Positions 32,077 through 45,366 are shown, counted from the first letter of the stretch. The stretch: 64,000 nucleotides of DNA from an uncultured bacterium (GCA_902763805.1 CACWTN010000005.1:301784-365783), one strand, 5' to 3'. Program-made: numbers and translations. The notes: generated by a model from the letters alone, not told the origin.

Positions 32077-32961
32077 TTATTTAATGCTTTCTATTATTCT
32101 TCGTTCCCGTTCAACGGAATTATACACAGCCCGTTGAGAATAATAATGTTTAAAAATAGCATAAATTTCTCTTTTTGGAATTACGTTATTATCCTGTTTT
32201 AATAAATCAAAAACATTAAACCAAAACAATTTTCTTACTCCCTGAGTTATGTTACCTTTAAACTCTTTTATTCTTTCAGGCGAACATCTTTCAAAAACTT
32301 TATTAAGAGCCTCAAAATGCAGCTTTCCTACGTACGAAAAATTTTTAAATCTGCAGCATGCAAACAAATGTTCAAAACCTTTGCCTTCATAATCTTCTCC
32401 CAGAATATCTGAAATCGGTAGTGATACAAGATTTGGAGCATCACCCAATAGCTCGTCTTTTTTCAAAAGCTGTTCGGCCTTTTTCAGAGAAGTTCCGTAA
32501 TGAGTATAATCCGTAAGGACATAAGTTTTATCACTATTCTTTTTTAAATCCGTTTTGCTTAATCCGATTTGAACCAAATAAGTTTTATAAACCTGCAGAC
32601 TGTCAGACGGAATACAATCAACATCCCCTTTTCTCAACCCTGAAAGAGGGATAATCTTTGTTTCAGCTCCTAAATATCTCATAAGTTCGGCAATAGAAGA
32701 TAATGAACGCCCGAGTGCAATCATTACATAATTGTTTTCACCGTATTTTTTATCCAGCTCTCTTTTTATTTTTTCTGCTGCATAACAATTCAGCCGTGCA
32801 AGTTCTTTTAATCTGGAGGGCGATACTTTACGCAGAAAATCACAGGTTTTACTGTCGGTTTTGCCAACATTTTCCAATGTTATTTTACCGATTTTATTCA
32901 GACTTTTCTGACATTCGGAAAACAGATTGACGCTTTGTACTTTAGAAACACTTACACTCAT
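32077..32961 (-). CDS. Phosphoribosyltransferase-like protein, lineage-specific
   Basis: 294 residues from ATG 32961. The middle has a PRTase-fold signature: a strand YVMIALGRSLSSIAELMRYLG, then YVLTDYTHYGTSLKKAEQLL, which aligns with the PRPP loop (hydrophobic strand, D-x-T-x-x-G-T-S). The N-terminus (MSVSVSKVQSVNLFS) resembles the short leaders of neighbouring proteins but is the weakest case. The second acidic residue of the usual DD pair is Y/T here, so catalysis is doubtful. Not assigned to a pathway. Confidence 0.5.
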   Translation of the reverse strand: MSVSVSKVQSVNLFSECQKSLNKIGKITLENVGKTDSKTCDFLRKVSPSRLKELARLNCYAAEKIKRELDKKYGENNYVMIALGRSLSSIAELMRYLGAETKIIPLSGLRKGDVDCIPSDSLQVYKTYLVQIGLSKTDLKKNSDKTYVLTDYTHYGTSLKKAEQLLKKDELLGDAPNLVSLPISDILGEDYEGKGFEHLFACCRFKNFSYVGKLHFEALNKVFERCSPERIKEFKGNITQGVRKLFWFNVFDLLKQDNNVIPKREIYAIFKHYYSQRAVYNSVERERRIIESIK

Positions 32962-32994
32962 ATAATGACAAAAACATAAACACAAAATTTTTTG
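32962..32994 (-). promoter_or_regulatory. Shared leaderless-type promoter, copy 1
   Basis: CAAAAAATTTT begins 33 bp before ATG 32961; TATGTTTTTG and a CATTAT -10-like box follow, directly before the ATG. No ribosome-binding site. Same layout as the copies before 33597, 36852, 40862 and 40961. Confidence 0.5.
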
Positions 32995-33000
32995 CGTTAA

Positions 33001-33597
33001 CTACACTATGATATCAAACTTAATCTTGTCCAGACTATGAATCAAATCATACAACTTTGTTCCGGGGGTTACAGCTTCTTCCTGCATAATTACGTTTTGA
33101 ATATAATCGAACTCGTCAAACGAAAATTTTGTTTCCGGATTTTCTTTTTTTAACCGCTCGGCAGCTTTAACTTTTTCAAGAAAAAATTCCCTGCTTTTTG
33201 GATTTGTTATCTTCTCCGCAAGCTTTTTCAGTTCAGAAAAATCTGCTCCTTTTTCAAGATATTTTCTTGTTATGACTTTAAACAAATCATTTTCACCGTC
33301 CCCGAAGATTCTGGAACACTCATTAATAAGCGTTTTTGCAGCACTCTCTGTTTTACGCATTTTTGAACGATGCTGAAACTTAACACCCTGAAAGTTATCA
33401 TTAGAAAAAATAAACTTGCGGTTTTTATTAATATCAACTACGGTTTCTTTATCAATATTCCGTGCAAAAGTTTCATCAAAGAGCTGAACATATTTGTCCG
33501 TTCTGACTTTATCATGCCCGAATTCTTCATTTATCTTTTTCAGCAAATTCTTTCCGATTTTTGCACGAAAAGAAATGTCATTAACCGTTAGTTCCAT
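33001..33597 (-). CDS. Lineage-specific protein with N-terminal ISFRA leader
   Basis: 198 residues from ATG 33597. It starts MELTVNDISFRAKIGKN: a short leader ending in F10-R11-A12, as in eight other proteins of this window. The rest is charged and mostly helical (ESAAKTLINECSRIFGDGEND, REFFLEKVKAAERLKKENPET), with no membrane helix or known motif. A leaderless-type promoter precedes it. Function unknown. Confidence 0.65.
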   Translation of the reverse strand: MELTVNDISFRAKIGKNLLKKINEEFGHDKVRTDKYVQLFDETFARNIDKETVVDINKNRKFIFSNDNFQGVKFQHRSKMRKTESAAKTLINECSRIFGDGENDLFKVITRKYLEKGADFSELKKLAEKITNPKSREFFLEKVKAAERLKKENPETKFSFDEFDYIQNVIMQEEAVTPGTKLYDLIHSLDKIKFDIIV

Positions 33598-33629
33598 AAC
33601 CAATTAAAAACCTGTAAATATTATTTTTG
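33598..33629 (-). promoter_or_regulatory. Shared leaderless-type promoter, copy 2
   Basis: CAAAAATAATATTTACAGG starts 32 bp before ATG 33597 and is followed by TTTTTAATT and five bases before the ATG. TTTACAGGTTT matches copy 5 (40929) base for base at the same distance. Confidence 0.55.
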
Positions 33630-33651
33630 CCTGAAACAATTACCCCTGTCC

Positions 33652-35496
33652 CTACTCAACGGTTACAGACTTAGCAAGGTTTCTCGGCTGGTCAACATCT
33701 TTACCGAGAAATTCTGCAATGTAGTATGCAAGCAGTTGTAAAGGTACTATCGCAAGTGCAGGTGAAAGAAGTTCCGAAATCTCAGGAACTCTGATTACGT
33801 TCTCAAAAAGTTCCTCAAGTTTGTGGTCATCAGAATCCGTCAGAGCCAGCATTCTTGCATTTCTTGCTTTTGCTTCTTCTGCATTAGATAAAATCTTCTC
33901 GTAAACTTTGCCCTTCATCAAAATCGCAAGAACAGGCATAGAATCATCTAACATTGCAATAGGTCCGTGTTTGAGTTCACCGGCAGAGTATCCTGTCGCA
34001 TTAATATAGCTTATTTCTTTAAGTTTTAATGCACCTTCTAATGCTGTCGGGAAGTTTATTCCTCTTGCAACAAAGATAAAATCTTTAAATGATGAGAATT
34101 TTCTTGCTATAGCCTGAATGTCTTCCTTGTGGGTTAAAACTTTATCTATTTTTTGAGGAAGAAGAATAAGTTCGTGCTTCAAATCAAGAATTTCTTCTTT
34201 TGAAATTGAACCTTTAACTTCAGCCATATAAATAGCAAGAAGATAGAAGGATATTAGCTGCGCCATATAAGATTTTGTTGCCGCAACGGAAACCTCAATA
34301 CCCGCATTAACAGGAACAAGACTGTCTGCTTCTCTTGCCATTGTTGAATCAGGTCTGTTAGTTACAATAAGAATATGAGAGCCTTTTTTCTTAGCCAATC
34401 TTATTGCCGTAATTGTGTCAGCCGTTTCACCTGATTGAGAAACACCAATTACAAGAGTGTTCTCGTCGGTAATAGTTTTTCTGTAAATATATTCGCTTGA
34501 TGCTTCAACTTCAACAGGAATTCCGCAGAAATCTTCAATAATATATTTACCTACCATAGCTGCATGAAGCGACGTTCCGCAAGCAACAATTTGTATTCTG
34601 TTCAAATCTTTTAGCTTTGCCTTGTCTAAAGTAACTTCATCAAGCGCAATCGGTTCATCAATCGTTTTAAGTTTTCCTGATAAAACGTTTCTTACAATAT
34701 CAGGCTGTTCATGGATTTCTTTAAGCATAAAGTGCTTGTAACCCATTTTTGACAACGCAACCGGCTCCCAAGGAAGTGTTTCAATCTTCAGCGGAACTTC
34801 ATTCTTCTCAATATCAATAACTTTTGCACTTGACGGTGTTAAAGTAACAATTTGGTTATCGTCTAAGTACATTGCTTTTTTTGTATACTGGATTAATGCA
34901 GGAATGTCAGAAGCAACATAATTTTCGCCTTCTCCAAAACCGATAACAAGCGGAGCATTTCTTCTTGTTGCAACAATAGTATCCTTAACATCCTGATGAA
35001 TAACAGCAAGAGCGTAAGCACCCTCTATTTCTTTGGTAGCAAGCCTTACAGCTTCTGTTAAATCTTTTGTTTCTGCATATTTTGATGCGACTAAGTGTGC
35101 AACCGTTTCCGTATCGGTTTGTGAACGGAAAGTACACCCCTGAGCTTCAAGTTTTACTCTGAGCTCTTTATAGTTTTCTATAATTCCGTTGTGAACTATT
35201 GCAACCCTTCCGCAATTACATGTGTGAGGATGAGCATTCGCTACTGAAGGCGCACCGTGTGTTGCCCAGCGAATATGACCGATACCTATAGTGGATTTTG
35301 ATATTTCGGAATAATTTTTCTCAACAATATTTCTCAGATTTTGCAGTTTACCCTGAGCTTTAAACACCTGAACTTTGCCGTCAATATTAAGAGCGACACC
35401 TGAAGAATCATATCCTCTGTATTCAAGACTGGTTAAGCCTTCGAGCAAAATATCGACTGCTGTTTTATTTCCTATATATCCAACGATTCCGCACAT
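33652..35496 (-). CDS. glmS: Glutamine-fructose-6-phosphate aminotransferase (isomerizing)
   Basis: 614 residues. Makes glucosamine-6-phosphate from fructose-6-phosphate and glutamine, the entry to peptidoglycan and lipopolysaccharide sugars. The N-terminus is the class II glutaminase with the nucleophile C2 (MCGIVGYIGN) and EYRGYDSSG. Two SIS isomerase domains follow (GVSQSGETADTITAIRLAK, GPIAMLDDSMPVLAI), and the C-terminal DQPRNLAKSVTVE is canonical. No glmS ribozyme was seen upstream; the 146-bp spacer is simply AT-rich. Confidence 0.98.
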   Translation of the reverse strand: MCGIVGYIGNKTAVDILLEGLTSLEYRGYDSSGVALNIDGKVQVFKAQGKLQNLRNIVEKNYSEISKSTIGIGHIRWATHGAPSVANAHPHTCNCGRVAIVHNGIIENYKELRVKLEAQGCTFRSQTDTETVAHLVASKYAETKDLTEAVRLATKEIEGAYALAVIHQDVKDTIVATRRNAPLVIGFGEGENYVASDIPALIQYTKKAMYLDDNQIVTLTPSSAKVIDIEKNEVPLKIETLPWEPVALSKMGYKHFMLKEIHEQPDIVRNVLSGKLKTIDEPIALDEVTLDKAKLKDLNRIQIVACGTSLHAAMVGKYIIEDFCGIPVEVEASSEYIYRKTITDENTLVIGVSQSGETADTITAIRLAKKKGSHILIVTNRPDSTMAREADSLVPVNAGIEVSVAATKSYMAQLISFYLLAIYMAEVKGSISKEEILDLKHELILLPQKIDKVLTHKEDIQAIARKFSSFKDFIFVARGINFPTALEGALKLKEISYINATGYSAGELKHGPIAMLDDSMPVLAILMKGKVYEKILSNAEEAKARNARMLALTDSDDHKLEELFENVIRVPEISELLSPALAIVPLQLLAYYIAEFLGKDVDQPRNLAKSVTVE

Positions 35497-35642
35497 AAAT
35501 CTCTCCTGTTATTACTAAATTATTTTAGCATAAATATGAATATTTCTTATTAAGATTATATAAACATTTGTAAATATTTTAGAAAAAACAGTCAATAATT
35601 TAAAAATAAAAAACTTTATATAAACATAAAAGGTGTGTGTGA

Positions 35643-36050
35643 ATGATTGACCCCATAAACAGTATAACAAACCCGTATATTAATTTTCGCTCAAATCATG
35701 AAAACATGGGAAGTCTTGGCTTTCAGCCAAGAATGCGCCAGCCGCTTTTGATAGATATTTTTGAGAAAACAACTTCCGGCGGAATAAACGGCTCGAAAAA
35801 TTCTGCAGAAAAAATACAGGAATTACTTCCTTTTGCAAAAATAAAATCTCTTGCCCCGTCTACCAGAGAAACTGAACGCAACAAAAAAATAGAAGAAGAA
35901 AAGAAACATATAGCAAAAGTAATTACGAAACGGACGGAAGAAAGCAAACGAAAATTGCGTAATGCCGGAGTAAAAGAAAGAGATTTGTACAAATATTTAA
36001 CTTACGACGGACACATTAACAGCGAAGGGCAACGCATAATCAGGGGCTGA
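35643..36050 (+). CDS. Lineage-specific protein with INFRS leader and C-terminal AGVK/KYL motif
   Basis: 135 residues. The N-terminal leader is MIDPINSITNPYINFRS (F15-R16-S17). The C-terminal 34 residues, KRKLRNAGVKERDLYKYL...GHINSEGQRII, match a segment at residues 68-102 of the protein at 37636, suggesting a shared small helical domain. The middle is charged. AAGGTG precedes the ATG. Its last 11 bp overlap the end of the convergent gene at 36040. Function unknown. Confidence 0.65.
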   Translation: MIDPINSITNPYINFRSNHENMGSLGFQPRMRQPLLIDIFEKTTSGGINGSKNSAEKIQELLPFAKIKSLAPSTRETERNKKIEEEKKHIAKVITKRTEESKRKLRNAGVKERDLYKYLTYDGHINSEGQRIIRG

Positions 36051-36852
36051 ATTTGCCGTTCCATAATTTTCGAAGAAGCATGTCCCTTTGAGAAAGTTCT
36101 CTATGAGATAATACTGTTTTTTCAGAATACGGATATTCACCAAAAATATTCTTTTGAGGTATAAGCCTTTCCTTATCCAGCACTTTCAGGTTTCGTTTTG
36201 ACAGGTCGCAGGCAACAGCTTCCAAAGGGTTTGATCCTGCATAATGGCATATTTTTGAAAGCTTTTTACCATGCTTTGAAATAAATCCGTCAAGAAAACC
36301 CTCTTTGTGCAATGACTGAAGTACTTTTAACAGTTTTTCACAGCCAAGCCGGTTTATCATATTATTCTCGTGCAGAACATGCATAAACTCATGCAAAATA
36401 TTTTCCAAAAAGAAATCTGTTGCAGAAATCCCTTTCTCATAACATTCGTCAGCTATACTATCAAGATTTTCCCATTTTATGTTATTTGAGTTAAACACAA
36501 TCGTTTTTTCAGGTACTATGATATCTTTTGCTTTAAAAAGATATGACGGAACGAAATTTGTTAAACCCATTGCCGACCGATCAACACCGTTTAATTTTTC
36601 ATAATCTTCTACAAGAATACCGTTTGGCATTCCTGTATTATAATGAAATCTGTTGTTTATGTACCTGAGTATCTGAAAACATTTTAAGGAACTCCACGCA
36701 ACAACACGATTGTTTTTAAAATCGGTATTAATATTTGCAGCTGCAAAATAATTTTCTATATCTTTGACATTACAATGCCTTATTTCAGCCTTCATTTGTT
36801 TTGTAAGGCCTGACTGAAATGAGAATTTGTTGTTGTACACCCGAATTTCCAT
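36040..36852 (-). CDS. Putative zinc metallopeptidase (HExxH) with FSFQS leader
   Basis: 270 residues from ATG 36852. N-terminal leader MEIRVYNNKFSFQSG. The zincin motif HEFMH is at residues 154-158 (ENILHEFMHVLHENN), preceded by an IVFNSNN strand and followed by SNPLEAVACDLSKR, whose glutamate could be the third ligand. The same order of blocks occurs in the protein at 9874. No signal peptide. Target and activity unknown. A leaderless-type promoter precedes it. Confidence 0.6.
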   Translation of the reverse strand: MEIRVYNNKFSFQSGLTKQMKAEIRHCNVKDIENYFAAANINTDFKNNRVVAWSSLKCFQILRYINNRFHYNTGMPNGILVEDYEKLNGVDRSAMGLTNFVPSYLFKAKDIIVPEKTIVFNSNNIKWENLDSIADECYEKGISATDFFLENILHEFMHVLHENNMINRLGCEKLLKVLQSLHKEGFLDGFISKHGKKLSKICHYAGSNPLEAVACDLSKRNLKVLDKERLIPQKNIFGEYPYSEKTVLSHRELSQRDMLLRKLWNGKFSP

Positions 36853-36885
36853 TATATAGTACAAAAACCTTAAAAATTTTTTTTG
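36853..36885 (-). promoter_or_regulatory. Shared leaderless-type promoter, copy 3
   Basis: CAAAAAAAATTTTTAAGG starts 33 bp before ATG 36852, followed by TTTTTGTACTATATA directly before the ATG. No ribosome-binding site at normal distance. Confidence 0.5.
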
Positions 36886-36978
36886 CTATAGTTTATGAAC
36901 ATTTGTAAAAAATCCCGTTAAAACATATCAAAATATTCCATGCTTAAGGTTTAATAATAAAAAAAGAGAAGGTGTTAT

Positions 36979-37632
36979 ATGATTAATCCTGTCAATCTGA
37001 TAAACAACCAGGGGTATGTATATTTTAAATCTGCCGACAACAAATCTAAGTTTCCATATTGCACAAATAATCTGCAGCTTTCGGGGTATGAAGCAGGCCG
37101 GGCAATTTTAGCGGAAAAGAATATTTGCTTTAAACAAAAAGAAGCATTAACTCCGATTGATTCTGTATATAACCAAAAAGTCAACAGTGAAATTATCAAA
37201 ACCTGTTATGAATATGACTCAAACAAAAAAAATGACACTTTGGCTTATTATGTCGGATCTTTATTAGAATATTACACGCCATCATTCCATACTGATATAG
37301 ACAAAAAAAGTTTTATGAAAAAATGTTACTTAATATTGGATTTCAACACTAAAAACGATAATTTAAACACGTTCGGAGATTGTTACGAAAAACAGCAAAA
37401 ATTATTGCAAATTGTTTCCGATACTTTAACTCCGAATACGTTGGATTCCATAAAAGAATATGACATCAAGCTTCAAAATGAAAATTTTGAAAACGGTAAA
37501 TTTGATGAAAAAACAAAAGATAACAATATTAAAATAATTAATTCAGTATCATTTGAAGATATAAAAGACTTTATTAACAATAATATGTTAAACAAAAAGC
37601 CGTATATTACGGTGCAAAAAAGGGAAAATTAG
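36979..37632 (+). CDS. Lineage-specific protein with VYFKS leader
   Basis: 217 residues. The leader is MINPVNLINNQGYVYFKS (F16-K17-S18). The rest is lysine- and asparagine-rich, helical, with no membrane helix; a CFKQKE and LGSLLEYYT-like segments are present but no known motif. GAAGGTG precedes the ATG; an AAGGTTTAATAAT box upstream resembles part of the shared promoter. It ends 3 bp before the gene at 37636, so the two form an operon. Confidence 0.6.
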   Translation: MINPVNLINNQGYVYFKSADNKSKFPYCTNNLQLSGYEAGRAILAEKNICFKQKEALTPIDSVYNQKVNSEIIKTCYEYDSNKKNDTLAYYVGSLLEYYTPSFHTDIDKKSFMKKCYLILDFNTKNDNLNTFGDCYEKQQKLLQIVSDTLTPNTLDSIKEYDIKLQNENFENGKFDEKTKDNNIKIINSVSFEDIKDFINNNMLNKKPYITVQKREN

Positions 37633-37635
37633 TCC

Positions 37636-39051
37636 ATGATTCCGGCAATAAAACCAACAGATAAATATACAAAAATCACACCTAAAATAAAACATAAAGC
37701 GATACTGCCTCTTATTGCAATGCCAATAGTAGCATACGCATATTCAGCAAGCAAAAGAGAATCTATATTTGCCACAAAAATCGCCCAGGAAAAAAACTCG
37801 ATGGGCAAACCTTTTACAAAGAATTTAGAAGATCATAAAAAACAATTACAAAAAGCCGGAGTTAAAGATAGTGAGATTAGCAAATATTTAAATTCAAGCG
37901 GAAATTACAATACAGAAGGTGAAGCAATTCTAAAAAAAGGTAAAAAACAAAGTACGTTTAAAGGTTCACCAGACGAAACATCATCAGAAACAACAAGCTT
38001 GAACGACACAACAGATTTACAGGAAACACAGGCTTTAGAAGAAAGCGACGTAAGCATTTCTCCGGAAATGACTGATATTGATGACAGCTTGACGGATTTG
38101 CCTGAAATTAAAGCAATAGACCGTACAATACAAATTGTTGATACAATTCTTGATAATCCTTTGCTGATTGGTTTGGCAGCCGAGATGTTGCCCGTGGTAA
38201 GATTTTTAAAACCTGCCACAGACCTGTTTCATGGCGATTTTGACAAATCTCTGGCCGGCATAATATCCAGAGGAATTGATATTGTCATTACTCCGCTCAA
38301 ACTTACCGCAGGATCTGTTCAGGGACTGGTTGAAGCCTTTAGCAATTCCGAACCGAAGAATAAAATAAAAACTTTCTATGGCGGGTTGAAAGACTTTTAT
38401 ACCTCCTGGGCTCAGGGAAGAGATGATATGGAAGATGAATTCTTAGGCAGAGCAACAAAAGCAGAAAAACTGGAAAATTTACGTAAATACAAAGAAGAAT
38501 TAATTAAACAAAAAAAACAAATGCTCGCTGACAGGTATAAACCAAAACCCGAATTTGCAGATCCAATCAAACCGCAGGCAAGCATTAAAGAAAATCCGCT
38601 GAACAACCTTGATGACCGTATAACAGCGGAAAGAAAATGTTTTAAAGAATTGCTGGAAAAACTTCAGGCATTAAACCCAGATATGAACTTATCTGAATAC
38701 AATACTTATAACACCTGGGGTTCTTCAAAATTAGCCAAAAAAGCAAGAAAAATTGAAGAAAAAATAAAGGCAGAAAATGATAAAAAAGGTATACACGAAG
38801 ATTTTGTACCTTTCAGCATAAAACTGAAACAAATAAAAACAGCGGATTTAAAAAACAAATTCCAAAACCTGCTTACAGAATATCAAAATTGTGACCCTAA
38901 CGCACAAATTTCCGATTATGACGGCTGGGAAAACTGGAATACGGACGAGTTAAAACAAAACATAACAGCTCTTGCCGACATTGTAGATGCCGCTAAAAGA
39001 AATCCTGAAAACACATTTTTCAGATTTCATCATTTACCCTTACGGAAATGA
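37636..39051 (+). CDS. Large lineage-specific protein with duplicated helical module
   Basis: 471 residues. One possible membrane helix lies near residues 20-38 (KAILPLIAMPIVAYAYSAS). Residues 68-102 (HKKQLQKAGVKDSEISKYL, then NTEGEAIL) repeat the C-terminal motif of the protein at 35643. A Thr/Ser/Asp-rich linker, a hydrophobic block (170-235), and two related units follow: ELLEKLQALNPDMNLSEYNTY (about 335-378) and NLLTEYQNCDPNAQISDYDGW (about 407-451), each with a W/N-rich turn. Its 3' end overlaps the opposite gene at 39030 by 22 bp. No function recognised. Confidence 0.6.
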   Translation: MIPAIKPTDKYTKITPKIKHKAILPLIAMPIVAYAYSASKRESIFATKIAQEKNSMGKPFTKNLEDHKKQLQKAGVKDSEISKYLNSSGNYNTEGEAILKKGKKQSTFKGSPDETSSETTSLNDTTDLQETQALEESDVSISPEMTDIDDSLTDLPEIKAIDRTIQIVDTILDNPLLIGLAAEMLPVVRFLKPATDLFHGDFDKSLAGIISRGIDIVITPLKLTAGSVQGLVEAFSNSEPKNKIKTFYGGLKDFYTSWAQGRDDMEDEFLGRATKAEKLENLRKYKEELIKQKKQMLADRYKPKPEFADPIKPQASIKENPLNNLDDRITAERKCFKELLEKLQALNPDMNLSEYNTYNTWGSSKLAKKARKIEEKIKAENDKKGIHEDFVPFSIKLKQIKTADLKNKFQNLLTEYQNCDPNAQISDYDGWENWNTDELKQNITALADIVDAAKRNPENTFFRFHHLPLRK

Positions 39052-39314
39052 CCGATGGCTGCGGCGAGCAGAGCAATGATACCGCAAATTGTAAAATAAC
39101 GTTTAAGATTGAACTCATGTTTTTCCTTCTCCTTTACTGCACCTTCATATATATCTGTATTAATCGCACGCATTTTTTTCGTCGCTTCCTCATCGGAAAA
39201 CGGCTTTTTCTGAGGCAGAACCAAATGTAAATCATTCGGGTCAACCTTTGGGCGTTTAACCTTCATATTTGTTGAGGTATGTGCCTCAAGATTATATGTA
39301 TTCACTTCACTCAT
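39030..39314 (-). CDS. Small tail-anchored membrane protein
   Basis: 94 residues: a polar N-terminal part and a single hydrophobic helix at the C-terminus (YFTICGIIALLAAAIGHF) followed by RKGK, the pattern of a tail anchor. It begins 1 bp after the GNAT gene stop and should be co-transcribed with it. Its 3' end overlaps the convergent gene at 37636. Function unknown. Confidence 0.6.
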   Translation of the reverse strand: MSEVNTYNLEAHTSTNMKVKRPKVDPNDLHLVLPQKKPFSDEEATKKMRAINTDIYEGAVKEKEKHEFNLKRYFTICGIIALLAAAIGHFRKGK

Positions 39315-39315
39315 A

Positions 39316-39984
39316 TCAGAAAAGTTCTCCGTAATGTATTAGTTTATTAAGCCGATTTTTCGGCAGATACATCATGCCTATTTGAGCAGGGATATCCGGC
39401 ATATTATTCCTCAGACACTCCTCCATGACTTCATTACTCTTAGGATCTATAAACCTGAATCCAAGTTTATAGAAGAATAACGCCGGCGACGCCTCCTTCA
39501 TCATCGGAGCCGAAAAAGTCACAATACGCCCCTGCGCTCGGGAATCAAACATCGCCTTCTCGGCAAGTTGTTTTAATGCCTCCGTTCCCTGTCCGCACTT
39601 GGGTTTCGCAGCCTGAATGTAATCTATAATATAACAGTTTTTTAAATACTTCGTTTTCCGTTTATACGTTCGCGGAGTATACAGTACGGGCGATTCTTTA
39701 GATACGAAAAAGTTTCCGCCGCCTCCATTATCCGCATATTGACTGTACTTACCCTTATATTCAAATTCTTCTTCCACTATATCGACATAGTCATCATCAA
39801 TTTCGCCCGGAATAACAATATTATCACCGCGCTTTATTTTTTTAACCCGTAAAATCGCCTTTTCCTTCAGCTGAGGCGTTTTAAACCCCAGTATCGCCGG
39901 CATACTCATGCTTGTCACAGACGGCGTCGCCTTAGCAACACTCATCTGAGGACGCAAGTCCATAGTCGTGATGTTGTTAATCAT
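39316..39984 (-). CDS. GNAT-like acetyltransferase with LGFKT leader
   Basis: 222 residues. The C-terminal half shows GNAT features: KPKCGQGTEALKQLAEKA (the acetyl-CoA loop, Q-x-x-G-x-G/A type), then ASPALFFYKLGFRF, the typical strand-helix end. The first 36 residues are a leader ending in F34-K35-T36. The substrate is unknown. An AGATAGGT ribosome-binding site precedes the ATG, within a short direct repeat of AGGTTAGATA. Confidence 0.6.
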   Translation of the reverse strand: MINNITTMDLRPQMSVAKATPSVTSMSMPAILGFKTPQLKEKAILRVKKIKRGDNIVIPGEIDDDYVDIVEEEFEYKGKYSQYADNGGGGNFFVSKESPVLYTPRTYKRKTKYLKNCYIIDYIQAAKPKCGQGTEALKQLAEKAMFDSRAQGRIVTFSAPMMKEASPALFFYKLGFRFIDPKSNEVMEECLRNNMPDIPAQIGMMYLPKNRLNKLIHYGELF

Positions 39985-40091
39985 ACCTATCTAACCTATA
40001 TTTATCTAACCTTAAATATATAAAGTAATTCTTCTCTGAAAAATTGCTTTTTTATAATGAGTAAAAAACATGTTGTTACAAAAGTTAACAA

Positions 40092-40862
40092 TTATTTTTT
40101 AAAATATTCTTTTAATTTTTCCATCGGACTATCAGGACCGTATTCCGCCTTGAATCTTGCATCAACAAAACGGTAACCTATAAATTTACCGGAATCATCT
40201 CTTTCGATTTCAAATTTTGTATGTAATGTTTGCGTTTTTCCTTGACCATCTTTTATTCTTCTGGGGTAATAATTAACATAATCAAAACCGTCATGATTAT
40301 ATTTATAAAGAGCAGCTCTGTATTCCGGAGTTTCTGCCTCTTCTGATGGAACACCTTTTTCTAAAAGCGTCTTTTTTATTCTCTTCTGCTTTCCGAGTTC
40401 TTTCCCAAATTTTTCATCAAAATCAGCAACATTATGTCCTGTTATTATATATGATGTCGGAGAAAAACAATCTGTCGAACCATAGTATGCATTATAGTAT
40501 GACCTTCTTTTCGGACACAGTCTGTAATCAACATCTACAGAAGCAATATATGTTCTGAATTTTTGAGCTGGAACATCTAATATTTCGTACAAACTTTTTA
40601 ACTTTCTTTTTATACCTCTTAGCTCTTCCTCTCCAATATTCTTTTTATTCATCTTATCTTCTAATTTTTTTACTTCTGTCAAAGTTTCTTTAATTGATTT
40701 GCGTAAAAAATTAAGAATTTTTTGCTGAAAATCTTCAACGACCGCTTTTTCACCAACAGGTGCATAACTTCCCCCTGCTTCGGCTACCCAATGAACAACA
40801 GGGAATGTTGATTTAAAATTTCTTTGTTGGTATTGATAATTGTTAGTTTGCAGAATTTTCAT
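40092..40862 (-). CDS. Lineage-specific protein with RNFKS leader
   Basis: 256 residues from ATG 40862, giving the leader MKILQTNNYQYQQRNFKS (F16-K17-S18). The frame is open to 40931 but the upstream part covers the promoter and the GGGGTAAATG element, so the shorter start is preferred; ATG 40880 is the alternative. The middle is a coiled-coil-like stretch (LTEVKKLEDKMNKKNIGEEEL); Tyr-rich parts follow (KRRSYYNAYYG). No known family. Confidence 0.6.
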   Translation of the reverse strand: MKILQTNNYQYQQRNFKSTFPVVHWVAEAGGSYAPVGEKAVVEDFQQKILNFLRKSIKETLTEVKKLEDKMNKKNIGEEELRGIKRKLKSLYEILDVPAQKFRTYIASVDVDYRLCPKRRSYYNAYYGSTDCFSPTSYIITGHNVADFDEKFGKELGKQKRIKKTLLEKGVPSEEAETPEYRAALYKYNHDGFDYVNYYPRRIKDGQGKTQTLHTKFEIERDDSGKFIGYRFVDARFKAEYGPDSPMEKLKEYFKK

Positions 40863-40894
40863 ATTATCATTAAACCCCATAAAAATATTTTTTG
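40863..40894 (-). promoter_or_regulatory. Shared leaderless-type promoter, copy 4
   Basis: CAAAAAATATTTTTATGGGG starts 32 bp before ATG 40862; TTTAATGATAAT follows up to the ATG, with a TAAT-type -10 at the right distance for an mRNA beginning at the start codon. Confidence 0.5.
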
Positions 40895-40897
40895 CTA

Positions 40898-40907
40898 GGG
40901 GTAAATG
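40898..40907 (+). repeat. Intergenic GGGGTAAATG element, copy 2
   Basis: Exact 10-mer between two divergently directed leaderless-type promoters, followed by TAGGG. Confidence 0.5.
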
Positions 40908-40928
40908 TAGGGAGAGGAGATATATCAG

Positions 40929-40960
40929 CAAAAAAATTTTTTACAGGTTTATAATGTAGT
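40929..40960 (+). promoter_or_regulatory. Shared leaderless-type promoter, copy 5
   Basis: CAAAAAAATTTTTTACAGG starts 32 bp before ATG 40961, then TTTATAAT (-10, TATAAT at 40950-40955) and five bases before the ATG. This is the best example for an mRNA starting at the A of the start codon. Confidence 0.6.
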
Positions 40961-41308
40961 ATGAACATACAAAAAACAAACATATCTTTCGGTGAAAAAT
41001 ATCCGACCGCAAAAGTATTAGAAATCACAACTAAGAAAATTTTTGACCCTGACGGTGTAACAGGTTATATAGAAACCCTGAAAAAAATTCATGGAAATGT
41101 TCCGAGATATACAGGACATCAGGGGTACAGAAAATATGCAGACGAAGTAAGCGAAAAAATACTTGCCAAATATCCTAAACTGGCTCAGGCAACAAAGGAC
41201 ATTCTGGATATCGCAAACCGTTGCAGAAGTCCGTTTGCCAAAGATTTAAATGTCATGGTACAACCCGTTTTGGACAGGTTTGGCAAAGAAATTGATATAG
41301 TTATATAA
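40961..41308 (+). CDS. Lineage-specific small protein with ISFGE leader
   Basis: 115 residues. It opens MNIQKTNISFGEKYPTAKVLE (F10-G11-E12). The remainder is helical and basic (YADEVSEKILAKYPKLAQATKDIL). There is no ribosome-binding site; TATAAT stands five bases before the ATG. The 3' end overlaps convergent truB by 8 bp. Function unknown. Confidence 0.65.
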   Translation: MNIQKTNISFGEKYPTAKVLEITTKKIFDPDGVTGYIETLKKIHGNVPRYTGHQGYRKYADEVSEKILAKYPKLAQATKDILDIANRCRSPFAKDLNVMVQPVLDRFGKEIDIVI

Positions 41309-42588: not shown

Positions 42589-45366
42589 CTAACCTTTCAG
42601 ACTGTCTAAAAATTCTTTGTTTGCATCAAGCGTATCCTGTGACGCAACAATGCTGTATATCGGTTTTTTAGAGAATATTTTTTGTGCTGCGTCAATTATA
42701 TCCTGTTTGGTTATCTTATCAACTTCATTATAAATTTTGTCCTTCAGCTCTATACCGTACGGAGAATTCATTCCTGCAGATAAAGCTTCTATTTTTGCAA
42801 GATTGCCCTCATTTTCCAGCAAATCTGCTTTCATAGAGCGTTTTGCATTTTCTAAATCTTCATCCGTAAACTTACCGTCAAGAAGCTCTTTAATCTGGCG
42901 GTTAAATCCGCTTATTGATTTTTGTACATTATCATAGCTGTATTCTCCGATTTTTTTGTTATCGGTAGTTGTCAGAATGTTTAGTGATAACTGCCCCTGA
43001 TTTCCGATACGTGAATAATTTGAGAATACAGAATATGCAAGATTTTCCTTTTCACGCAACACATCAAACAAACCAATGCTTGATGAAGAAAGAATAGAGT
43101 TCAGAACCTGAATTACTGCCATTTCTTTAATGCTGTTATCACGTTCAAATCTGAATACTTCAGAAATATCAGCCTGAGAGTTATAATTTGATGCTGTAAG
43201 TACGACAGGAGTTTTAATCTCCTTGTGTACTTCAAGAAGTCTGTAATTATTGGGTTCGACCTGAGGAAGACTGGATACGTTGCTCAGTATGTTATACTTA
43301 ATTTCTTTTTCGGCTTTTTCGGGAACATTTGCGGTAACAATTCCTCTTGAATTTTTGATTAAGTAATTGTGAAGCTCTTTAACATCATCCACTGTAATCT
43401 TATCAAGTCCCCTCATAATTTCATCACGTCTGAACAGGAACGGATTTAATATCGTATCTGCATCTTTCTGAAGCATATTTGCCGTTTTTGGTGTTCTTAA
43501 CATTCTGTCTTTTATACGGGCTGCTGCTACTTTGATATTTTTTTCGTTTATATTCGGATTAAACAAAAGTTCTTCCATTTTGTTTAACCCGAGTTTGTAA
43601 TTGCTGACATCACCGCTCATGCCGGCACTTATACCTGATTGTCCTGCATTTACAACTATTCTCAGATTATTTTTATCCTTAAACTCATTAAATTTATCAA
43701 CCGGCATATTCGGAGTGCCCATCGTGTAAATTTCACTCAGAATTTCCGCAACTCCGGCTTTTTTGGAATACGGAATATTATTCTTTAGTTCAAGTGATAC
43801 ATTAATATTATTCGTTTTGGTATTGTAAAAAGCTGTATCATAATTGTTATTCAGCCTGTATTCACTCATTGCAGCAGTATCAAGCGGAGTTCTCTTTGCT
43901 CCTTTAAAAGAAACTTTTTCTGATGTTTTTTCAGGATGAATAACAGTAATTGCACACTTTGAAACATCAAAATATTCTTTTACCGCTTTACTGAGTTCTT
44001 CAGGAGTTACGGAATCCAGAATTTCATTGTACTTAGTTATGTATTCAATATCATTATCCAAAACAGAATAGCCTATATTGTCATTAACGGAGGTTGAATG
44101 TTCCAATACAGATTCATTTTCCTGTTTTAACCGCTGTTTAAGACGTTCTGTTGTTTCGGCTGATATTTGCTTCTTATTTCCCAAATTATCAAATACTGTT
44201 TTAAGAACTTTTTCCGCATTATATTCCGCAGGTGCCATTGTCATAAACACAAATCTAGGGCTGTTTGGATTTGTAGAAATTTTTTCACTGCTTATTAATG
44301 GAAGTGAGTTATATTTTTTGAGTTTTGGTATAAGTCCTGCTTCATGAGAATTCAGATAAGTCGCAGCCAGTTCAAAAAGAATCTTGCCCCTTGTATCATT
44401 GTTTTTCGGGCCTGCAAAACCAATAACCGTTTCAGCAGAAGTTGTTTTATCCGATTTAAAATCTTTTCTGACGGTTATTTCTATCGGACTCATTTTTTCT
44501 TCAAATTTCTGACCTTTAGAAACTTTACGGGAGTTAAAATTCTTAGCAACAAGCTTTATTGTTTCTTCTGGATTGACATCACCTGTTATAACAATATTGG
44601 TATTATCGGGAGTATAGTACTTGTTATAATAATTAACCACATCTTCTCTTGTCAGGTTCTGAATATGTGCAACACTTCCGCCCACCAGTTCATCAGCAGG
44701 ATTTTTAACATTGAACAGCGTTCTTACGGTTTGGTCCATCGCAACTGTCTGTGGGTTATCAAGAATCATATTTATCTCAGAAGAAACTGGGCCTTTTTCC
44801 TTTTTAATCATGTCATCCGACAGTTTTAAATCTTCCGCCATAGCAGCAATAACCTTAATCTGAGTTTCAAGGTCTTTATTTTCAAGGAGCGGGGTTGAGT
44901 TAACATAATCGGTAATCGCATAGTTTGTACTTGCATTTGCCCAGCCGCCTAGTTTGTCAATCTTTTTAAAAGAATCGCCCTGTTTAAGTTCAATATGTCC
45001 GTTTTCACCGTTTGTTCCGTTAAATGCCATGTGTTCAAGAAAATGACTAATACCTTTAATGTCAGCCGTTTCATTCATAGAACCGACATTAACATAACTT
45101 TTTACAACAGCAGGTGAATTTTTCATCGGAACAATGGACACTCTGTATCCGTTAGACATTTTATAGCTGTGAAGCTCCAGTCCGTTGTCCAATTTGTCAA
45201 CAGATGTTTTTCTGTATTGTACAGGAACGTTTACCCCAAAATCAGGTGTCACATATCCAAGCTCTTTAATCTCTCTCTGCGTTTTTTGAGGCGTAACATT
45301 ATCAGGGGTCGTTTTATTTGCCCCCAGCGAATTAAATACAATATTATTTACACCTGAAACCTTCAT
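42589..45366 (-). CDS. M16-family (insulinase-like) metalloprotease with IVFNS leader
   Basis: 925 residues from ATG 45366; the frame runs 35 codons further upstream but that part reads as non-coding. The leader is MKVSGVNNIVFNS (F11-N12-S13), and no signal peptide follows, unlike many M16 proteases. The zinc motif HFLEH is at 108-112 (ISHFLEHMAFNGT), with the distal ligand E190 about 77 residues on. Two M16 halves are visible; the second lacks the zinc motif, as usual. It should degrade peptides or small proteins in a closed chamber. The ATG has no ribosome-binding site. Confidence 0.88.
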   Translation of the reverse strand: MKVSGVNNIVFNSLGANKTTPDNVTPQKTQREIKELGYVTPDFGVNVPVQYRKTSVDKLDNGLELHSYKMSNGYRVSIVPMKNSPAVVKSYVNVGSMNETADIKGISHFLEHMAFNGTNGENGHIELKQGDSFKKIDKLGGWANASTNYAITDYVNSTPLLENKDLETQIKVIAAMAEDLKLSDDMIKKEKGPVSSEINMILDNPQTVAMDQTVRTLFNVKNPADELVGGSVAHIQNLTREDVVNYYNKYYTPDNTNIVITGDVNPEETIKLVAKNFNSRKVSKGQKFEEKMSPIEITVRKDFKSDKTTSAETVIGFAGPKNNDTRGKILFELAATYLNSHEAGLIPKLKKYNSLPLISSEKISTNPNSPRFVFMTMAPAEYNAEKVLKTVFDNLGNKKQISAETTERLKQRLKQENESVLEHSTSVNDNIGYSVLDNDIEYITKYNEILDSVTPEELSKAVKEYFDVSKCAITVIHPEKTSEKVSFKGAKRTPLDTAAMSEYRLNNNYDTAFYNTKTNNINVSLELKNNIPYSKKAGVAEILSEIYTMGTPNMPVDKFNEFKDKNNLRIVVNAGQSGISAGMSGDVSNYKLGLNKMEELLFNPNINEKNIKVAAARIKDRMLRTPKTANMLQKDADTILNPFLFRRDEIMRGLDKITVDDVKELHNYLIKNSRGIVTANVPEKAEKEIKYNILSNVSSLPQVEPNNYRLLEVHKEIKTPVVLTASNYNSQADISEVFRFERDNSIKEMAVIQVLNSILSSSSIGLFDVLREKENLAYSVFSNYSRIGNQGQLSLNILTTTDNKKIGEYSYDNVQKSISGFNRQIKELLDGKFTDEDLENAKRSMKADLLENEGNLAKIEALSAGMNSPYGIELKDKIYNEVDKITKQDIIDAAQKIFSKKPIYSIVASQDTLDANKEFLDSLKG

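Follow-up and report, generated by a model that had tools for sequence, protein, structure and literature searches.

In Actinobacteria and Deinococcus-Thermus, leaderless genes are known whose Pribnow box, TANNNT, lies about 12 bp ahead of the start codon (PMC3160421, PMC3898074). The promoter element described here resembles that type in its fixed, short distance to the ATG, the absence of a Shine-Dalgarno and a transcript expected to begin at the ATG, the first two being found together only in those of its genes that lie 32–35 nt from the element. Unlike the TANNNT type, it consists of GCAAAA, an A/T block and GTTTT (the aligned sites have TTTTNA, with no TANNNT about 12 bp before the start), and it marks a small class of genes whose products share an N-terminal tag instead of a large part of the gene complement, and most members of the class have a leader.

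Regulons of alternative sigma-70 factors (group 2/3, ECF) provide the other close parallel, as they too have a rigid two-part promoter before many unlinked genes, here 50 sites of a gapless 25 bp element. Lineage-specific sigma factors that match its distribution at family level are candidates for the cognate sigma. We know of no sigma consensus with GCAAAA and, 14 bases later, GTTTT, and the spacing is about 2–3 bases shorter than in typical ECF promoters. In the HrpL regulon of plant-pathogenic Pseudomonas, one sigma-specific promoter likewise precedes scattered, unrelated genes with an N-terminal signal in their products. The resemblance is one of working only; the promoter sequence differs (the hrp box, GGAACC-N15/16-CCAC, is absent from the consensus, GCAAAA...GTTTT) and here a short, defined motif makes up the tag. 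As kinds, leaderless genes and sigma regulons are known. In the open-access papers searched we found neither the promoter sequence, nor its use in two classes, nor its link to a tag, nor any paper joining Gastranaerophilales with a sigma factor.

Gastranaerophilales, non-photosynthetic relatives of cyanobacteria, are frequent in animal guts and have scarcely been studied at the bench. The window, a stretch of 64,000 nucleotides from an uncultured bacterium (GCA_902763805.1, CACWTN010000005.1:301784-365783), belongs to a genome of 1.96 Mb in 20 contigs with a GC content of about 36%, and its DNA matches rumen assemblies. The photosystem proteins PsaA/PsaB are encoded in 50 of the 116 genomes drawn from the phylum and were found neither in the window's genome nor in the family members listed in that set. 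Together, the absence of PsaA/PsaB, the size, the GC content and the rumen matches point to Gastranaerophilales (Vampirovibrionia/Melainabacteria; for the size and GC of the order see PMC9029806) as the likely taxon.

Element copies in the window and their anatomy

An initial annotation had noted that the genes starting at 32961, 33597, 36852, 40862 and 40961 have no ribosome-binding site and share an A/T block at a fixed distance before the ATG. Their upstream regions indeed hold no Shine-Dalgarno in any of the five. In every one, GCAAAA lies 33 or 34 nt before the ATG and is followed by the A/T block and by GTTTT or GGTTT near -14. We scored the region 30–36 nt before the ATGs of 382 sampled genes with a weight matrix trained solely on sites of other genomes. 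Against a median of -36, 12 genes scored 22 to 36, 32961 scored 5.3, one more 1.9 and the others below -4. The fixed-distance block is therefore clear in four of the five genes, 33597, 36852, 40862 and 40961 (25.7 to 34.2), while 32961 has a weak, degenerate variant in which GC and GTTTT are one base further apart. The M16 gene at 45366, which the annotation had included, was rejected as a carrier, its score being -43.3 in spite of GTTTTTATA at the canonical place and a tagged product. The elements and genes are as follows (R1, a sequence-only DNA model built from 17 sites; scores are those of the matrix).

40926..40960, + strand: leaderless-class promoter element upstream of the 40961 gene; G1 at 40928, 33 nt ahead of the ATG; R1 E 2e-5; score 32.2
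40961..41308, + strand: gene, 115 aa, N-terminus MNIQKTNISFGEKYP, tag ISFGE; homologues in four genomes of the same genus
40863..40897, - strand: leaderless-class promoter element upstream of the 40862 gene; G1 at 40895; R1 E 5.5e-5; score 34.2
40092..40862, - strand: gene, 256 aa, N-terminus MKILQTNNYQYQQRNFKSTFP, tag NFKS
36853..36888, - strand: leaderless-class promoter element upstream of the 36852 gene; G1 at 36886, 34 nt; E 9e-4; score 29.1
36040..36852, - strand: gene, 270 aa, N-terminus MEIRVYNNKFSFQSG, tag FSFQS; no family match
33598..33632, - strand: leaderless-class promoter element upstream of the 33597 gene; G1 at 33630, 33 nt; E 4e-4; score 25.7
33001..33597, - strand: gene, 198 aa, N-terminus MELTVNDISFRAKIG, tag ISFRA; no family above cut-off
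32962..32997, - strand: degenerate element of the 32961 gene; G1 at 32995; R1 E 0.07; score 5.3
32077..32961, - strand: gene, 294 aa, N-terminus MSVSVSKVQSVNLFSE, tag doubtful

The 40862 and 40961 elements are divergent from each other. Among homologues of the window genes the element is kept in place while the surrounding upstream DNA has changed: it is conserved in 7 of 7 sequences of the 40862 family (window included), clear in 5 of 7 and degenerate in one more of the 40961 family, and present in both members of the 36852 family (2/2, including L203). Pfam and NCBIfam yielded no usable family for the five products, nor did solved-structure searches for two of them. A BRCT match of the 33597 product fell below the curated cut-off and was discarded. 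The 36040..36852 product contains HEFMH, read by eye as a possible zinc-peptidase motif.

Alignment of 88 sites, nearly all from relatives, gave the 25 bp consensus tAGCAAAAAwTTTTTTACGnGTTTT, gapless from two bases before C2 to T24. G1, C2, A3-A7, T11-T14 and T22-T24 are conserved at 97–100% and G20 at 88%; upstream of the element there is no conservation and downstream only A/T richness. Its core, G[C/T]AAAAAATTTTTT[A/G]C, is near symmetrical and of the A6T6 type. As search patterns, a strict version including TATAAT had zero matches and GCAAAAA alone far too many.

The '-10-like box' of the initial annotation is not a sigma-A -10, as an invariant T occupies the place of its essential A. The aligned sites do not have TATAAT across them (TTTTNA instead), the TATAAT of the 40961 site being an exception, whereas ordinary genes of the host genome are enriched in TGnTATAAT (25 versus 6.8 in shuffles). 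Housekeeping sigma requires an A at -11. Because the block, if transcription begins at the ATG, would lie at -33 to -10, the region that a sigma factor reads, with its two halves at fixed spacing, T replaces the A at -11 and ordinary genes use TGnTATAAT, a dedicated sigma would be the simplest reader.

Could SigA nevertheless read these promoters, with the A/T block as a UP-like element or rigid spacer and a common need for high expression behind the link to the tag? A-tracts are known to strengthen promoters and two window sites do hold TATAAT or a similar box, but beyond the general lack of TATAAT and its use by other genes, GC and G20 hardly vary, if at all, which a UP element would not show, and the element is missing from genes outside the tagged class among the 382 sampled; we regard this as quite improbable. 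Somewhat less so, if still unlikely, is that a repressor or silencer (e.g. a protein binding the narrow groove of A-tracts) uses the block as its operator over weak sigma-A promoters, so that this protein and not RNA polymerase would read the conserved bases. The near-symmetrical core would suit a dimeric DNA-binding protein, and the A/T-rich DNA downstream could conceal degenerate -10 boxes. Such an operator would, however, need to sit at one constant distance from the transcription start in every gene, no separate conserved -10 or -35 was seen beside the element in the 88 sites, and G20-TTTT, outside the symmetrical part, is equally conserved.

Distribution and distance to the start codon

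The R1 whole-genome search found 50 sites in the host genome (E<=0.05), scattered across contigs, so that the element is not the island feature that the annotation had taken it for. The shared control it proposed is well supported for the named genes, and the observation as a whole is larger than it had seen. A loose pattern occurred at 33 places versus 11 for the reversed control, most of the strong ones ahead of genes. The matrix gave 26 sites at >=20 bits in 464 kb and none when reversed, although the whole-genome searches are the fairer test, since that sample was partly picked around known sites.

Sixteen relatives of the same genus have 17–50 sites each (E<=0.05). At E<=0.01, all 49 family genomes, host included, have 5–38 sites each (5–32 in the other 48), against a total of 3 sites across 67 further genomes of the phylum. 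In the order's remaining families there are 2–14 (E<=0.05), several of these sites preceding tagged genes (L165, L179, L181). A start codon follows in the same orientation at 112 of 133 sites, and in the mirrored orientation at 23. The annotation's own refuting condition, a block of this kind equally common before ordinary genes, was borne out neither by the 382 scored genes nor by the comparison of the 49 family genomes with the 67 others.

Measured from G1 to the base before the ATG, the spacing is of two classes, both here and in the relatives, whose sites were chosen by the DNA model alone. Of the 41 aligned genes of the host genome, 15 have 33–35 nt (13 of them exactly 33 nt) and 26 have >=45 nt; of 70 genes in the relatives, 17 have 32–33 nt and 53 have >=44 nt. 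No scored gene lies between the classes; L217 and L218, both without a confirmed ORF in the fetched stretch, may do so. By a loose test, 44 of the 53 led genes of relatives have a Shine-Dalgarno; the five positives among the 17 leaderless genes are not meaningful, because the test also counts the promoter's own GGGT. Two classes with a gap are what would be expected if transcription started 33–34 nt after G1, since a leader must hold a Shine-Dalgarno and a led gene would then need about 11 nt or more. Judged by this gap, transcription probably begins at the ATG in the 32–35 nt class. The promoter is not leaderless as such, because an ordinary leader, mostly with a Shine-Dalgarno, precedes about two thirds to three quarters of its genes; the suggestion that mRNAs start at or next to the ATG would therefore hold for the named genes and not for this majority. 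The class can switch within one protein family, L168 being leaderless and its homologue L206 led. One promoter class alternating between leaderless and Shine-Dalgarno-led genes constitutes a natural experiment on translation initiation.

A tag shared by unrelated products

The products of the promoter genes, mostly unclassified, are unrelated to each other. An alignment of 39 of them leaves only MxI........F in common, and the Pfam matches are single cases: a CheR-type methyltransferase twice, and once each a uridine kinase, peptidase M3, dual-specificity phosphatase, amylase and radical SAM protein. They share a short N-terminal tag, on which the initial annotation was silent, of roughly the form M-[K/R/N]-I-N-x(3-20)-[I/T/P]-[S/N]-F-[K/R/G/Q]-[A/G/S]. 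A motif model trained on the host genome and tested on relatives found it in 33 of 64 promoter genes versus 14 of 185 neighbouring genes (odds ratio 13, p = 5e-13, a value that overstates independence because the test set holds some proteins akin to one another or to those used for training). An M[KRNQDE]I start was present in 29 of the 64 and 11 of the 185. Tagged genes without a recognisable element also exist in the window, and the tag thus reaches beyond the regulon:

35643-36050, + strand: tagged gene, tag INFRS, Shine-Dalgarno leader
36979-37632, + strand: tagged gene, tag VYFKS, Shine-Dalgarno leader
42589-45366, - strand: tagged M16 gene, tag IVFNS

The products of 35643-36050 and 37636-39051 (+ strand) have a stretch of about 60 residues in common at 38–40% identity, a small duplicated domain.

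Promoter and tag often occur together, and 33597 and 40961 have TTTACAGGTTT in common, as might be expected had both been copied as a 5' cassette by recent duplication, the likeness then reflecting descent and not common control. We consider this very improbable: the sites are alike only over 25 bp, with different DNA before, between and after; leaders come and go; the tag varies in length and sequence; the alignment of the 39 products retains so little; and persistence across a whole order would need selection.

Our preferred explanation, held with moderate confidence, is a single promoter class, genome- and order-wide, that is read by a dedicated non-housekeeping sigma and co-expresses tagged proteins. 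This sigma would recognise one rigid block, made up of GCAAAA at about -33 to -28, then a spacer of A-tract and T-tract, and finally G-TTTT at about -14 to -10, and transcription would start about ten bases past TTTT. The ATG would coincide exactly with the transcription start in roughly a quarter to a third of the genes, giving a leaderless mRNA, and would lie about 11 or more bases further in the others, mostly served by a Shine-Dalgarno. Since the products share the tag, the promoter would co-express a tagged class of otherwise unrelated, mostly unclassified proteins.

That unrelated proteins have one N-terminal motif and one promoter leads us to guess at a role of the tag in export or localisation. 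A bolder version, which we put forward only tentatively and think rather doubtful, combines an order-specific sigma and a new, partly leaderless promoter class with exported or co-localised proteins carrying a new address tag for a putative machinery that recognises it. The tag suggests a common cellular fate for dozens of unclassified proteins per genome, on which the promoter offers a sequence handle, and the system yields testable candidates for a sigma factor, a transcription start and a new sorting signal.

Candidate sigma factors

Seven sigma-70 family genes exceed the cut-off in the host genome: SigA, C1:149997, P0001, C8:80507, P0002, FliA and C1:67125. Among them, P0001 (303 aa, C1:119685-120593 in G000; L190, L265) is present in 49/49 family genomes, the other 48 having it at 56–62% identity, and extends to most of the order's remaining families (46–56%); outside the order, nothing above the level of SigA (about 40% or less) appears. 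In regions 2.4 and 4.2, each largely conserved within the order, it departs from SigA (ATWWIKQAMFKAISEQ for ATWWIRQAITRAIADQ; GVTKECIRQTE for GVTRERIRQIE), and we take this order-specific sigma with altered DNA-reading residues as a candidate reader. Difficult to reconcile with a T-only -10 is that P0001 retains the aromatic residues by which ordinary sigma factors grip the flipped A. No orthologue was found in G013 (99% complete), which yet has at least one convincing site (L181), or detected in G001 (83% complete), which has 17 sites.

P0001 is not the only candidate, because the ECF sigma P0002 has the same distribution at family level; the expected distribution of a cognate sigma is thus matched by both within the family, and by P0001 within the order except for G013 and G001. 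The dedicated sigma that the initial annotation had raised as a possibility is the best remaining explanation, and either of the two may be that factor. Control of the sigma genes by the element was considered and dropped: no sigma gene carries a copy upstream, the best score ahead of P0001 orthologues being 8.0. A tagged gene with a promoter of the new class lies close to P0001 here and in L266 and L267. In G117, which has 18 sites, P0002 is split in two frames (G117:C4:70638-71131), possibly by a sequencing error. The P0002 operon (L192:1133-2536) encodes an apparent anti-sigma followed by P0002, and a periplasmic CpxP-like protein; in the relative L174 it adjoins a promoter-bearing gene, which we did not count as evidence.
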